Source: Panopea generosa (Eukaryota > Mollusca > Bivalvia > Adapedonta > Hiatellidae). Taken from it: a stretch of DNA of 64,000 nucleotides. Shown one piece after another: positions 2,139-63,103 of the stretch; positions within the stretch are counted from its first letter, which is position 1, and each line of letters opens with the position of its first letter. A program made the position numbers and the translations under genes. Under the pieces are notes generated by a model, which saw nothing but the letters and a program-made list of their open reading frames with translations, made no database searches and was not told the DNA's origin. Where the stretch lies: the NCBI GenBank assembly GCA_029582155.1, contig CM055908.1, forward strand, positions 25,172,757 through 25,236,756. The letters run 5' to 3'.

Positions 2139-2554
2139 CTAATAAAGTGTTTCTTTTTTTTTAACAAAAAATAATCATTTGGTTCTTAAACACGAAACAA
2201 CAAAAAATGCCGGACTATCTAAAAATTGAAAATGCTGTTTAATCTATTTATTATTGATGTTTGTACTGTAATATATCATTTGATATAAAGTAATTGTCCA
2301 CTCATTGATGGAACGAAAGCAAGGACTGGTTTGTGTGTAGTTGTTTAATATTTTGTCTCATAGTTAAAGTAGCCCCAAAGCCACATGAATGTAATATTAA
2401 GAACTCCAACAGAACTAAACTCTTTGGCATGCATGTTTCAATATGAATCTAGTTCGAGTTGAAAAATATTTTTTTAGAAAACAATACAAATTGTTTTGTA
2501 AGAAAAGGTAATACAAGGTGTATTGTTTTTTTTTTTAATTTAAAACTTGACAGG

Positions 2555-2634
2555 CCATACTCTCACATAATGTTTTGGACTGAAATTTGAAGGTCCATGC
2601 TCTCACATAATGTTTTGGACTGAGATTTGCTCAA
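2555..2634 (+). repeat. Two-copy 40-bp tandem repeat
   Basis: The phrase CTCTCACATAATGTTTTGGA occurs twice, 40 bp apart, with near-identical flanks. A minor local duplication. Confidence 0.8.
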
Positions 2635-9472: not shown

Positions 9473-9756
9473 ATGGAATCCTCTTGATGTCTTTTCTCCA
9501 GTTTGATGCACACAATGCACATGGCATAATGATGATAATACCATATTAAATTTCAATTTAGGCCTGTTCTCTATATATTATGGCCAATAATTAGTTTATG
9601 TAACCAGTCACCAGGAAGTAATTATTTATAATCAACAAAAGTCCTGGGGGTATATAAGTGAAATAGTGACATCACTGCTGCTCTCATTAGGAATTACTCA
9701 TCCATCACATAGAATCACATAACCATGTTCAAAACATTAAATGATTATAATATGGG

Positions 9757-10005
9757 TTGTCCATGTCCGAGTTGTCTAAGGTATTGTCTCAAGATCACTT
9801 AACCTCCCACCACTGAGGTCGTGAGTTCGAGTCCCGCTTGGTCCAGACAAAAATTTTATGTGAGAAAGTTTGCCAGTTACTTGCAGATGAATGGTGGCTC
9901 TACTTAGATTTATTCTGAGGTCTTCCTCCACCAATAAAACTTGATATGCCAAATATAACCTGAAATGTGTTGAAAATGGCATTAAACCCTGGTATTAAAT
10001 AAAAA
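9757..10005 (+). mobile_element. SINE-B (Leu/Ser-type tRNA head)
   Basis: The head reads GTCCATGTCCGAGTTGTCTA, resembling the D arm and A box of a class II tRNA (Leu or Ser). It is followed by CACTTAACCTCCCACCACTG and a clean B box, GAGTTCGAGTCCCG. The body has the family words TTTATGTGAGAAAGTTTGCC, TCTTCCTCCACCA and ACCTGAAATGTGTTGAAAAT, and it ends in an A-rich stretch. Confidence 0.9.
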
Positions 10006-10137: not shown

Positions 10138-10180
10138 AGAAAATAATATTTCTATGCAAGGTGCATTAAATTACAGAGAA

Positions 10181-10362
10181 GGATCCTTTGTGGCCGAGTG
10201 GTCTTAGGCGCTCGCTCCAAAAACTTTATTGTGAGAATTTTACAGTTACTTGCAGAAGGATGGTGGTTCTACTCAGTCCGACTCAGTCTGGGGTCTTCCT
10301 CCACCAGTAAAACTGGATATGCCATAGATAACCTGAAATGTGTTGAAAATGCATTAATTTCT
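10181..10362 (+). mobile_element. SINE-B with internal deletion
   Basis: The head TGGCCGAGTGGTCTTAGGCG is the best-preserved SINE-B A box in the window. It jumps straight to CTCCAAAAACTTTATTGTGA, so the middle segment with the B box is missing. The end ACCTGAAATGTGTTGAAAAT is intact. Confidence 0.9.
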
Positions 10363-10612
10363 TCTTTCAGACTCTCAGACAAGCATTTCAAAGTTACCAA
10401 CATATTCAAAGTTTGTGTTTCAATAAATGAAAAGGGAACTAAAATAATGAATTATCCTTTTTTTGTGTTTTACTCCAATAAACATGTTACTGGTATTGCA
10501 TAGATCCAATTTCTGGAACTTCTCCGAACCCCTTATTCTTTGATAAAGTATCCCAAAGGTTCTAGCTGTTTTAAGAACATTAATTTTTGTCATTTGATTT
10601 AAATGAATGTGG

Positions 10613-13021: not shown

Positions 13022-13260
13022 TATAAGAAAAAAAACATGATAGATTGTACTGCATGATATTTAGCATCACTATCAATAATAGTTTTTCTAACCTAGATCC
13101 TGCTATCTCCCCTATCAGGCCTGTTAAACCCCAATGAAAAAAGTAAGAAATTCCAATGCTTGCACTACAGTTCATTTCAAAAGAACTTTCATGCTTACCA
13201 AACTGTGATGTCATCATCTTTCAGCAACAACAAATAAACATGCTCAAATCTCATTGTTAT

Positions 13261-16200
13261 ATGATGGAACCAAGCAGTCTTAACAATTGTTCACTCAGAT
13301 GATAATGTTTTGTATGTGGTGGAACCAAGCAGTCTAAACACTTGTTCACTCAGATGATAATGTTTTGTATGTGGTGGAACCAAGCAGTCTAAACAATTGT
13401 TCACTCAGATGATAATGTCTGTTATGTGATGGAACCAAGCAATCTAAACACTTGTTCACTCAGATGATAATGTCTGGTATGTGATGGAACCAAGCAGTGT
13501 AAACAATTGTTCACTCAGATGATAATGTCTGGTATGTGATGGAACCAAGCAGTGTAAACAATTGTTCACTCAGATGATAATGTCTGGTATGTGATGGAAC
13601 CAAGCAGTCTAAAAACATGTTCACTCAGATGATAATGTCTGGTATGTGGTGGAGCAAAGCAGTCTAAACAATTATTCACTCAGATGATAATGTCTGGTAT
13701 GTGATGGAACCAAGCAGTGTAAACAATTGTTCACTCAGATGATAATGTTTGGTATGTCATGGAACCAAGCAGTCTAAACACTTGTTCACTCAGATGATAA
13801 TGTATGGTATGTGATGGAACCAAGCAGCCTAAACACTTGTTCACTCAGATGATAATGTCTGGTATGTGATGGAACCAAGCAGCCTAAACACTTGTTCACT
13901 CAGATGATAATGTCTGGTATGTGATGGAACCAAGCAGTCTAAAAACTTGTTCACTCAGATGATAGTGTCTGGTATGTGATGGAACAAAGCAGTCTAAACA
14001 CTTGTTCACTCAGATGATAATGTCTGGTATGTGATGGAACCAAGCAGTCTAAACAATCGTTCACTCAGATGATAATGTCTGGTATGTGATGGAACCAAGC
14101 AGTCTAAACACTTGTTCACTCAGATGATAATGTCTGGTATGTGATGGAACCAAGCAGTCTAAACACTTGTTCACTCAGATGATAATGTCTGGTATGTGAT
14201 GGAACCAAGCAGTCTAAACACTTGTTCACTCAGATGATAATGTCTGGTATGTGATGGAACCAAGCAGTCTAAACAATTGTTCACTCAGATGATAATGTTT
14301 TGTATGTGGTGGAACCAAGCAGTCTAAACACTTGTTCACTCAGATGATAATGTCTGGTATGTGATGGAACCAAGCAGTCTAAACACTTGTTCACTCAGAT
14401 GATAATGTCTGGTATGTGGTGGAGCAAAGCAGTCTAAACAATTATTCACTCAGATGATAATGTCTGGTATGTGATGGAACCAAGCAGTCTAAACACTTGT
14501 TCACTCAGCTGATAATGTCTGGTATGTGATGGAACCAAGCAGTCTAAACACTTGTTCACTCAGATGATAATGTCTGGTATGTGATGGAACCAAGCAGTCT
14601 AAACAATTGTTCACTCAGATGATAATGTCTGGTATGTGGTGGAGCAAAGCAGTCTAAACAATTGTTCACTCAGATGATAATGTCTGGTATGTGATGGAAC
14701 CAAGCAGTCTAAACACTTGTTCACTCAGATGATAATGTCTGGTATGTGATGGAACAAAGCAGTCTAAAGAATTATTCACTCAGATGATAATGTCTGGTAT
14801 GTGATGGAACCAAGCAGTCTAAACACTTGTTCACTCAGATGATAATGTCTGGTATGTGGTGGAGCAAAGCAGTCTAAACAATTATTCACTCAGATGATAA
14901 TGTCTAGTATGTGATGGAACCAAGCAGTCTAAACACTTGTTCACTCAGATGATAATGTCTGGTATGTGGTGGAGCAAAGCAGTCTAAACACTTGTTCACT
15001 CATATGATAATGTCTGGTATGTGATGGAACCAAGCAGTCTAAACAATTATTCACTCAGATGATAATGTCTGGTATGTGATGGAACCAAGCAGTCTAAACA
15101 CTTGTTCACTCAGATGATAATGTCTGGTATGTGATGGAACCAAGCAGTCTAAACACTTGTTCACTCAGATGATAATGTCTGGTATGTGATGGAACCAAGC
15201 AGTCTAAACACTTATTCACTCAGATGATAATGTCTGGTATGTGATGGAACCAAGCAGTCTAAACAATTATTCACTCAGATGATAATGTCTGGTATGTCAT
15301 GGAACCAAGCAGTCTAAACACTTGTTCACTCAGATGATAATGTCTGGTATGTGATGGAACCAAGCAGTCTAAACACTTGTTCACTCAGATGATAATGTCT
15401 GGTATGTGATGGAACCAAGCAGTCTAAACACTTGTTCACTCAGATGATAATGTCTGGTATGTGATGGAACCAAGCAGTCTAAACACTTGTTCACTCAGAT
15501 GATAATGTCTGGTATGTGGTGGAGCAAAGCAGTCTAAACAATTATTCACTCAGATGATAATGTCTGGTATGAGGTGGAGCAAAGCAGTCTAAACACTTGT
15601 TCACTCAGATGATAATGTCTGGTATGTGGTGGAGCAAAGCAGTCTAAACAATTATTCACTCAGATGATAATGTCTGGTATGAGGTGGAGCAAAGCAGTCT
15701 AAACACTTGTTCACTCAGATGATAATGTCTGGTATGAGGTGGAGCAAAGCAGTCTAAACAATTGTTCACTCAGATGATAATGTCTGGTATGTGATGGAAC
15801 CAAGCAGTCTAAACACTTGTTCACTCAGATGATAATGTCTGGTATATGATGGAACCAAGCAGTCTAAACACTTGTTCACTCAGATGATAATGTCTGGTTT
15901 GAGGTGGAGCAATGCAGTCTAAACACTTGTTCACTCAGATAATAATGTCTGGTATGTGATGGAACCAAGCAGACTAAACACTTGTTCACTCAGATGATAA
16001 TGTCTGGTATGTCATGGAACCAAGCAGTCTAAACAATTATTCACTCAGATGATAATGTCTGGTATGTCATGGAACCAAGCAGTCTAAACATTGTTCACTC
16101 AGATGATAATGTCTGGTATGTGATGGAACCAAGCAGTCTAAACACTTGTTCACTCAGATGATAATGTCTGGTATGTGTTGAGCAAAGCAGCCTAAACAAT

Positions 16201-16836
16201 TATTCACTCAGATGATAATGTCTGGTATGAGGTGGAGCAAAGCAGTCTAAACAATTGTTCACTCAGATGATAATGTCTGGTATGTGGTGGAGCAAAGCAG
16301 TCTAAACAATTATTCACTCAGATGATAATGTCTAGTATGTGATGGAACCAAGCAGTCTAAACACTTGTTCACTCAGATGATAATGTCTGGTATGTGGTGG
16401 AGCAAAGCAGTCTAAACAATTATTCACTCAGATGATAATGTCTGGTATGAGGTGGAGCAAAGCAGTCTAAACAATTATTCACTCAGATGATAATGTCTGG
16501 TATGTGATGGAACCAAGCAGTCTAAACACTTGTTCACTCAGATGATAATGTCTGGTATGAGGTGGAGCAAAGCAGTCTAAACAATTATTCACTCAGATGA
16601 TAATGTCTGGTATGTGATGGAACCAAGCAGTCTAAACACTTGTTCACTCAGATGATAATGTCTGGTATGTGGTGGAGCAAAGCAGTCTAAACAATTATTC
16701 ACTCAGATGATAATGTCTGGTATGAGGTGGAGCAAAGCAGTCTAAACAATTATTCACTCAGATGATAATGTCTGGTATGTGATGGAGCAAAGCAGTCTAA
16801 ACAATTGTTCAGCTAGATGATGATGTTTTGTATCTG
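13261..16836 (+). repeat. 55-bp minisatellite, about 65 copies
   Basis: The unit contains CACTCAGATGATAATGTCTG, GTATGTGATGGAACCAAGCA and GTCTAAACACTTGTT. Period measured as 55 bp from successive CAAGCAGTCT words. Units fall into a GATGGAACCAAGC type and a GGTGGAGCAAAGC type; the second usually comes with CAATTATT and becomes common in the right half. No continuous reading frame runs through it, as expected because 55 is not a multiple of three. Confidence 0.97.
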
Positions 16837-18758: not shown

Positions 18759-19016
18759 ATCTATAGAAGGTTTTGATTATTAATCAGGTCATCAAATTAA
18801 TCAAGGTCCTCCATAGCAGAGTGGTGTAAGGCGCTGTCTCAAGGTCACTTACTGGTACCTCTCACTGCTACGATCGTAGGTTCAAGACCTGCTTGCTTCA
18901 AAAACTTTATGTGAGTAATTTTGCCAGTTTCTTGAGGAAGGACAGTGGACCTACCGGTACTCAGATTCATTCTGAGGTATTCCTCCACCAATAAAACTGG
19001 ACATGCCATTGTATAA

Positions 19017-21732: not shown

Positions 21733-22153
<421 letters not shown>

Positions 22154-59784: not shown

Positions 59785-62398
59785 AGGGTCCTCCGTGACT
59801 AAGTGGTCACTTACCTCTCCCCACTGAGGTTGGAAATCACTTACTTCTCACCGCTAAGGCTGGAAATCACTCACCTCTCACTGCTGAGGTCAGAGATCAT
59901 TTACCTCTCACCGTTAAGATCACTTACCTCTCACTGCTGATGTCAGAGATCATTAACCTGTCATTGCTGAGGTCAGAAAACACTTACTCTCACCACTGAG
60001 GTAAAAAATCACTAACCTCTCAATGCTGACATCAGAGATCACTTACCTCACACTGCTGAGGTCAGACATCACTGAATTCTCACCACTGAGGTCTTAGATC
60101 TCTTACCTATCACTGCTGATGTCAGAGATAACTTACCTCTCATGACTGAGGTAAGAGATCACTAACCTCTCACCATTGAGGTCAGAGATCACTTACCTCC
60201 CACCACTGAGGTCAGAGATAACTTACCTCTCACCGCTGAGGTCAGAGATCACTTACCTCCCACCACTGATGTCAGAGATAACTTACCTCTCATGACTGAG
60301 GTAAGAGATCACTAACCTCTCACCATTGAGGTCAGAGATCACTTACCTCCCACCATTGAGGTCAGAGATAACTTACCTCTCACCGCTGAGGTCAGAGATC
60401 TCTTACCTCTCACCGCTGATGTCAGAGATAACTTACCTCTCACCAGTGAGGTCTTAGATCACTTACCTCTCACTGCTGAGGTCAGAGATCTCTTACCTCT
60501 CACCGCTGATGTCAGAGATAACTTACCTCTCACTGCTGAGGTCAGAGATCACTTACCTCTCACCGCTGAGGTCAGAGATAACTTACCTCTCACTGCTGAG
60601 GTCAGAGATAACTTACCTCTCATCGCTGATGTCAGAGATAACTTACCTCTCACTGCTGAGGTCAGAGATAACTTACCTCTCACTGCTGAGGTCAGAGATA
60701 ACTTACCTCTCACCACTGAGGTCTTAGATCACTTACCTCTCACCGCTGATGTCAGAGATAACTTACCTCTCACTGCTGAGGTCAGAGATCACTAACCTCT
60801 CACCGCTGATGTCAGAGATAACTTACCTCTCACCAGTGAGGTCTTAGATCACTTACCTCTCACTGCTGAGGTCAGAGATCATTTACCTCTCACCACTGAT
60901 GTCAGAGATAACTTACCTCTCACTGCTGAGGTCAGACATCACTTACCTCTCACCACTGATGTCAGAGATAACTTCCCTCTCACTACTGAGGTCTTAGATC
61001 ACTTACCTCTCACCACTGAGGTCAGAGATCACTTACCTCTCACCACTGAGGTCAGAGATCACTTACCTCTTACTGCTGAGATAACTTACCTCTCACTGCT
61101 GAGGTCAGACATCACTTACCTCTTACCACTGATGTCAGAGATAACTTTCCTCTCACTGCTGAGGTCTTAGATCACTTACCTCTCACCACTGAGGTCAGAG
61201 ATCACTTACCGCTCACCACTGAGGTCAGAGATCACTTACCATTCACCATTGAGGTCAGAAATAACTTACCTCTCAATGCTGAGGTCAGAGATACTAACCT
61301 CTCGCCACTGATGTCAGAGATCACTAACCCCTCACTGCTGAGGTCAGAGATAACTTACCACTCACCGCTGATGTCAGAGATAACTCACCTCTCACCGCTG
61401 AGGTCAGAGATCACTTTTCTCTCACTGCTGAGGTCAGAGATAACTTAACCTCTCACTGCTGAGGTCAGAGATAACTTACCACTCACCGCTGATGTCAGAG
61501 ATAACTCACCTCTCACCGCTGAGGTCAGAGATCACTTAGCTCTCACTGCTGAGGTCAGAGATAACTTAACCTCTCACTGCTGATGTCAGAGATAACTCAC
61601 CTCTCACCGCTGAGGTCAGAGATCACTTAGCTCTCACTGCTGAGGTCAGAGATAACTTAACCTCTCACTGCTGAGGTCAGAGATAACTTACCACTCACCG
61701 CTGATGTCAGAGATAACTAACCTCTCACTGCTGAGGTCAGAGATCACTGCTGAGGTCAGAGATCACTTACCTCTCACCGCTGAGGTCAGAGATCACTTAC
61801 CTCTCACCGCTGAGGTCAGAGATCACTTACCTCTCACCACTGAGGTCAGAGATCACTAACCCCTCACTGCTGATGTCAGAGATAACTAATCTCTCACCAC
61901 TGAGGTCAGAGATAACTTAACCTCTCACTGCTGAGGTCAGAGATAACTAACCACTCACCGCTGATGTCAGAGATAACTAACCTCTCACTGCTGAGGTCAG
62001 AGATCACTTTCCTCTCACCGCTGATGTCAGAGATCACTTACCTCTCACCACTGAGGTCAGAGATCACTAACCTCTCACCACTGAGATCAGAGATCACTTT
62101 CCTCTCACCACTGAGGTCAGAGATCACTAACCTCTCACCACTGAGGTCAGAGATCACTTACCTCTCACCGCTGAGGTCAGAGATCACTGACCTCTCACCA
62201 CTGAGGTCAGAGATCACTTTCCTCTCACCTCTGAGGTCGAAGGTTCAAGTTCGGAACAGTCCAAAAACTTTATGTGAGAAAGTTTGCCAGTTACATGCAA
62301 AACGGTAATGGTTCTTGTCAGATTCATTTGGAGATCTTCTTCCACCATTAAAACACATAACCTGAAATATTGTTGAAAATGGCTTTCAACCTAATTCA
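59785..62398 (+). mobile_element. SINE-B with a 2.4-kb internal tandem expansion
   Basis: Left piece: AGGGTCCTCCGTGACTAAGT plus GGTCAC, the SINE-B head. Right piece from 62238: AGGTTCAAGTTCGG (B box region), CCAAAAACTTTATGTGAGAA, GAGATCTTCTTCCACCATTA and ACCTGAAATATTGTTGAAAA. Between them the SINE's own 30-bp segment GATCACTTACCTCTCACCGC TGAGGTC has been amplified about 80 times. The A and B boxes are now 2.4 kb apart, so the internal RNA polymerase III promoter cannot be functional. Confidence 0.9.
59806..62237 (+). repeat. 30-bp minisatellite derived from SINE-B, about 81 copies
   Basis: The unit is AGATCACTTACCTCTCACCG plus CTGAGGTCAG, with variants AGATAAC, ACTGCTGAT and CACCACTGAGG. The period is 30 bp with occasional 15-bp or 1-bp indels. 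Because 30 is a multiple of three, frames such as SEITYLSLLR repeats stay open; they are not genes. Leftmost units differ most. Confidence 0.97.
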
Positions 62399-62564
62399 AA
62401 ATTATTCTTTTAATAATTGTTTTTGTCTGTTGACTCTAGTGTTACCTTATCCTTGTATTTTACAGTGTTTCACTGGCATAAAAAGCATAACAAATGTTAC
62501 ACTAGATATTGTGGTGTAAATAAAAAAAAAAAAAAATTGTCATACAATATTAGCTGTTAAAATG

Positions 62565-62696
62565 TCTAATGGATTTCTGCATAATTTGAGATGATATTAT
62601 ATGAACTGTTTAATGCTTTTTATAGTCGCTTGTAGTATAGTACCATACATCCCCAAATAAACACCTCCTAGTTGGTGCATTTTAAAAAGGGGTGTG
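62565..62696 (+). repeat. 131-bp direct repeat flanking a SINE, copy 1
   Basis: Begins TCTAATGGATTTCTGCATAA and ends GCATTTTAAAAAGGGGTGTG. It abuts the SINE-A that starts at 62697. Confidence 0.9.
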
Positions 62697-62972: not shown

Positions 62973-63103
62973 TCTAATGGATTTCTGCATAATTTGAAAT
63001 GATAACAATATTATATTCTGCTTGATGCTTTTCATAGTAGCGTGTTGTCTAGTGCCATATACCCCCCAAATAAATAGTGTGGTGCATTTTAAAAAGGGGT
63101 GTG
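62973..63103 (+). repeat. 131-bp direct repeat flanking a SINE, copy 2
   Basis: Same start and end words as copy 1 (TCTAATGGATTTCTGCATAA ... AAAAAGGGGTGTG), with about one difference per 6-8 bases in the middle. Confidence 0.9.

Follow-up and report, generated by a model that had tools for sequence, protein, structure and literature searches.

A minisatellite of about 82 head-to-tail 30-bp units in the genome of Panopea generosa is made from a segment of a SINE and is bordered on both sides by sequence of the same SINE family, and tandem arrays with other units are found inside SINEs of this family elsewhere in the genome. The stretch of DNA that was analysed, 64,000 nucleotides in length and referred to here as the window, corresponds to C15:25172757-25236756 in the genome searched, which comprised 1,474,161,289 bases in 39 contigs. 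The reading that we favour, to which we give a probability of roughly 85%, is that a SINE was inserted, that its nt 40-69 were duplicated and that the duplication expanded in place, a course of events that recurred across the genome.

The unit of the array descends from the SINE. A consensus of the element was built from 20 fetched stretches, out of 41 genome matches listed to the right flank of the array (the best 40 of 2227 candidates being scored), and the SINE is thus represented as a dispersed family with a common consensus. The unit is identical at 27 of 30 positions to nt 40-69 of this consensus, the stretch directly before the B box, and the best of 60 shuffled units, in any rotation and anywhere along the SINE, reached 19/30. 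The first-pass annotation of the window, which had equated the unit with the SINE's own segment and had proposed aligning the unit consensus to a genome-derived SINE consensus as a check, is borne out by this alignment. Within the window, shuffled units reached the unit's score against the single SINE copies in 0/1000 (copy at 9757), 2/1000 (18805) and 9/1000 (34580) cases, and in 0 cases against the − strand copies at 10150 and 56600; of these five copies, three give a strong match and two a thin one. Nine of the ten other tandem units in the window scored at most 20 against the copies at 9757 and 18805, and the tenth, which scored 24 and 26, is itself a duplicated SINE piece, namely a small tandem duplication (period 40, 2.2 copies; TRF and alignment) that lies where head meets body in a diverged SINE copy, at 2543..2629 on the − strand. 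The two copies used for these comparisons (9755..9990 and, with a short insertion in addition, 18805..19000, both on the + strand and identified by alignment and shuffle test) hold the segment once, which is the ancestral state, as had been said of them at the outset. A further copy (10182..10385, + strand, by alignment) is without the segment, its head being joined to its body.

These data bear on the idea of a pre-existing satellite that is similar to the SINE by coincidence or was captured by it, which we regard as extremely improbable. It is opposed by the failure of any of the 60 shuffles (0/60) to come near the unit's match, by the presence of the segment in single-copy SINEs and by the exact junction between units, whose matches in the genome all (25/25) lie within the window array, which is therefore local and not a dispersed satellite; nothing was found in favour of this idea.

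The array extends over 59805..62242 on the + strand, as established by TRF, decomposition and the consensus match. TRF placed it at 59807-62238 with a period of 30, 81.8 copies and 82% matches, decomposition against the unit divided 59805-62242 into 82 units, three of which are short (19-23 bp), and a separate decomposition, on which the statistics are based, yielded 83 rows over this stretch. The first 10 units are the most diverged, with a mean identity to the array consensus of 0.86 compared with 0.90-0.94 for the other ten-unit blocks, and at four positions of the unit a second variant is present in 19 to 32 of the 83 rows. When 15 lags were compared with 200 shuffles of unit order, identity between units was raised at lags 2-6 (z 2.0-2.7) and at lag 13 (z 2.0) and was not raised at lag 1 (z 0.1), and because unit likeness exceeds chance at lags 2-6 and 13 and not at lag 1, blocks of several units have probably been copied within the array. 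The DNA fold of two array units (one dimer, one strand) gave a z of −2.27, with 2/200 shuffles equally good, and a hairpin as the driver of the expansion is only suggested by this modelling. On the − strand, the unit (59805-62242) reads AGGTAAGT, which we take to resemble a strong 5′ splice site and which recurs along the array.

The two flanks of the array belong to the same SINE family and have the same order and strand. On the left is the SINE 5′ head (consensus nt 1-23) at 59785..59806 (+ strand, 87%, E 8e-5), and on the right, at 62226..62400 (+ strand, by consensus match), the last unit is followed by the B box (GGTTCAAGTTC), the body and the 3′ end; this right flank matches consensus nt 59-240 at 76.5% (E 3e-38), the remainder of the SINE being present on the two sides of the array. 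The first-pass description of a SINE head on the left and of B box, body and tail on the right is accordingly upheld as to family, order and strand, except that the head is shorter than described, as 20 nt of SINE sequence (nt 24-43, or nt 22-41 in the other phase, as read from alignments) are absent between it and unit 1, a loss that needs a second event. The last unit continues straight into the B box, and both unit 1 and the last unit adjoin the SINE in the right order and strand with no foreign stretch between. As had been claimed for these flanks, the origin of the array can be read from the SINE on both of its sides. That the two halves are one insertion is likely rather than proven, because of the 20 nt that are missing before unit 1 and because no target site duplication (TSD) was detectable at the window locus (shuffle p 0.49).

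The same two features, the missing TSD and the 20 nt absent from the left edge, together with chimaeric copies of another insertion on C25 and C27 (5/14), speak for an origin in which the two SINE halves come from different insertions, one of which already contained an array, and were brought together by recombination within this array or beside it. The way in which the first and last units enter the SINE, in the right order and strand and with no foreign stretch, speaks against it, as does the finding that array-bearing SINEs elsewhere have TSDs. Two of the four loci tested were positive, that on C16 with 12/12 (0/2000 shuffles) and that on C6 with 10/11 (p 0.017), and the C5 locus gave no TSD (p 0.61). 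We consider such a joining of two insertions improbable at the window. The earlier proposal that a mobile element seeded the array in place is supported by the unit and by both flanks, and the missing TSD leaves a small chance to the two-insertion origin.

As far as the data go, the SINE is tRNA-like only. Two motifs in the head of the consensus, TGGCCGAGTGG and GGTTCGAGTCC, were spotted by eye and are A- and B-box-like. The term tRNA-like is used, and nothing stronger, because models fail to recognise the head as a tRNA: ARAGORN reported no tRNA in the window or in the SINE consensus, and Rfam gave no family at the gathering threshold in the window and, for 5 loci, no family even at E values up to 1. 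The SINE head folded as RNA showed no special fold (z −0.34), and a pattern scan of viral contigs gave 0 matches.

The window case is unexceptional in its genome, as internal tandem copies of the SINE were read at 21 other loci. The 22 loci read, a number that includes the window and counts a multi-copy insertion once, have 2 to 124 units with periods of 19-62 bp, and at least 30 units are present in 8 of them; the loci were picked by pattern matches and give no measure of the share of SINE copies affected. They include arrays of 124 units of 47 bp (5.8 kb) at C18:11.6M, 102 of 27 bp at C2:96.5M, 76 of 40 bp at C3:38.5M, 58 of 42 bp at C2:6.03M, 34 of 40 bp at C1:97.02M, 32 of 30 bp at C5:43.20M, 18 of 34 bp at C6:4.06M and 11 of 45 bp at C1:63.09M. 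Smaller numbers were read at C7:20.42M (three units of 19 bp), at C9:31.6M (2.6 copies of 62 bp and a 110-bp duplication) and at C4:24.6M and C10:41.4M (two units of 43 bp each). The period is 35-36 bp at C1:14.09M, where the left end was not reached, 46 bp at C3:0.62M and at C4:72.6M, where the right end was not reached, 39 bp at C4:61.25M and 45 bp, from the 3′ body, at each of C1:8.01M, C2:64.72M, C2:83.23M and C3:73.15M. Two kinds of unit can be seen in one SINE copy at C4:61252550-61253600 (L123-L124), which has 21-bp head units, then 39-bp arm units and then the body.

A SINE-matching TRF array was present in 18 of the 20 entries tested; the remaining two are two-unit copies. In a search that included 10 array bases, a SINE match of any kind lay to the left of the array in 15/18 and to the right in 17/18, and when SINE outside the unit was counted alone, the head was on the left in 13/18 and the body on the right in 16/18. 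A looser junction pattern led to other arrays of the nt 40-69 segment with other junctions (68 matches). Of these matches 14 were excluded, being single SINEs in which changes in the head had made it look like the pattern; five of the excluded rows were fetched, and four (L096, L098, L099 and L100) are one SINE without such an array and the fifth (L097) is partial (nt 1-109).

The multi-copy insertion, with a 28-bp period, recurs in related stretches on C13, C16, C18, C20, C25 and C27, three of which are 97-99.5% alike over ~1.1 kb. Fourteen copies were read (the best 40 of 1443 candidates were scored and more copies may exist), and the number of units is 2 in four of them, 3 in five and 9 in five. 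The nine copies with 2 or 3 units have a common right flank and a TSD, which is exact in three of them and shorter by two bases in the other six. A change of unit number in place, whichever its direction, is shown between 2 and 3 units only. The five 9-unit copies (L091-L095, on C25 and C27) have the left flank of the C20 insertion and another right half, and recombination in or beside the SINE array is involved in them; it follows from this other right half that recombination can place halves of two insertions around an array. A pair of SINE halves from different insertions had been named beforehand as the finding that would overturn the seeding of the window array in place, and such chimaeras do exist, in 5/14 copies of this insertion, even if that origin is unlikely for the window. 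The search for SINEs with differing unit numbers, also suggested beforehand, was positive elsewhere in the genome, one insertion being present with 2 as well as with 3 units between a common pair of flanks and with 9 units next to the other right half. In a fifteenth copy, at C19:14.15M, most of the SINE is gone. A candidate empty site of this insertion was not accepted: 25 of the 40 scored matches to the left flank plus head (1443 candidates) stop near the insertion point, and the two that were read lack the right flank.

Arrays arise from the head, arm, head/body boundary, body and 3′ end of the SINE. The arm (nt 40-60) as the exclusive seed was rejected, since arrays come from other SINE parts as well. 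Searches with pairs of identical 13-base anchors (spacer 8-38) gave 1492 matches for the arm, 8 for the head/body boundary, 102 and 494 for the body and 34 for the 3′ end. The exact anchors are present in 3, 10, 8, 10 and 7 of the 20 SINE stretches, which were chosen by likeness to the window SINE body, and no rate per region follows from the counts because matches are not loci, because at most 100 matches per search were listed for the arm, the body and one further pattern, and because the anchor frequencies differ. Reversed control patterns gave 7 matches for the arm search, 2 for one other and 0 for the remaining eight genome searches.

Microhomology is weakly enriched at the founding junctions, with a mean of 1.09 nt compared with 0.70 when the same periods were placed at random (p 0.02), in a test in which 32 of 41 units, hand-picked from TRF rows and listed matches, were mapped to the consensus at 80% or more; the value for the window unit is 0 or 2 nt, according to phase. 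By eye, four junctions coincide with direct repeats that are 4-6 nt long in the consensus, with spacings of 36, 17, 11 and 45. A direct-repeat model of the first duplication was not adopted, the 41-unit test being weakly enriched and the spacing-36 case having scored 0 nt, and direct repeats are kept as a possible contributor. The plain reading of the junctions is duplication with little homology, followed by expansion.

The first duplication might also have been older than the individual arrays, the mobile form being a SINE that already had two units and several arrays having started from this inherited pair. The arrays at C5 and in the window use nearly the same 30-bp segment, and one 45-bp junction in the 3′ body is common to at least nine loci among the matches listed, both of which fit such a pair; periods and borders otherwise vary widely, with units of 11 to 62 bp drawn from all SINE parts, and this tells against it. 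We think an inherited pair rather unlikely, though deserving some weight, and it would alter the place of the first duplication and not the position of the arrays inside SINEs.

In the course of events that we favour, namely duplication and expansion within the inserted element, a tRNA-like SINE would have inserted at the window site and its nt 40-69 would have been duplicated head to tail, perhaps through an error of replication or of end joining. The pair would then have grown to ~82 units by repeated unequal exchange or block slippage, where both the direction of growth and the mechanism are what we infer, and the two ends of the SINE would have stayed on either side of the growing array. 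The same process would have taken place many times in the genome, affecting various SINE copies and giving rise to various units.

Minisatellites born from transposable elements (TEs) have long been known, as the first-pass annotation had correctly stated for SINE-seeded arrays, and the window array is a known kind of event; the interest lies in the number of loci and in the differing unit numbers of one insertion. In human, Alu and other TEs have given rise to minisatellites: Ahmed and Liang, who cite Jurka and Gentles (2006), report 7,276 TE-derived minisatellites, with Alu-derived arrays that average 2.30-2.42 units in three Alu classes and with two AluS regions that are richer in arrays (Ahmed and Liang, 2012; PMC3389668). 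The human Alu minisatellites are like the arrays here in that an internal SINE segment was tandemly duplicated and locally expanded, and differ in their mean of 2.30-2.42 units (PMC3389668); at least 30 units are present here in 8/22 loci, a set picked by pattern rather than sampled at random. Mouse VNTRs from SINE B1, as given in a table row (Bois, 1998, in PMC9659126), are likewise arrays born inside a SINE, with (GGCAGA)n as the unit compared with 30 bp here. The PcH-sat of the limpet Patella caerulea, derived from Nin-SINE, is also a mollusc tandem repeat with a long tRNA-type SINE segment, and its unit is 179 bp long, with 118 bp matching the SINE; it is mainly pericentromeric and makes up ~10% of the genome; unlike PcH-sat, the arrays here are single-locus minisatellites with the SINE still around them (PMC11121367). 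For Hy/Pol III of salamanders and Satellite 1 of Xenopus laevis, which were compared by table rows alone, the tRNA-related region of SINE-like elements is given as the source (PMC9659126). In the literature searched, with most subscription papers beyond reach, there was no single SINE family feeding many long single-locus arrays together with stages of one insertion.

The chances seem to us about even that this SINE family is a minisatellite nursery, in which stretches along the whole length of the element are repeatedly duplicated and expanded in place, from 2 to more than 100 units, with nt 40-60 and the 3′ body the most productive. If so, tandem expansion in the germline of this species would be unusually strong and would not be tied to one sequence. 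Since one seldom knows from which sequence a minisatellite started, its beginnings are difficult to investigate; here the starting sequence is known, being the SINE, which is present in many copies. A single copy, a pair, a triple, a nine-mer and a long array are found in one genome, and with them it would be possible to measure directly where the first duplication had its borders and how fast later change proceeded. These arrays also raise the question of what share of the heavy tandem-repeat load stems from mobile elements.

Twelve chosen TRF stretches make up 14,166 of the 64,000 bases of the window (22%), among them 65 copies of a 55-bp unit at 13258-16833 and, at 21858-22153, a perfect (TCTG)74. 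Shortly 3′ of the end of the array-bearing SINE, a repeated stretch is present at 62565-62696 and 62973-63103, the two copies being 79% alike.
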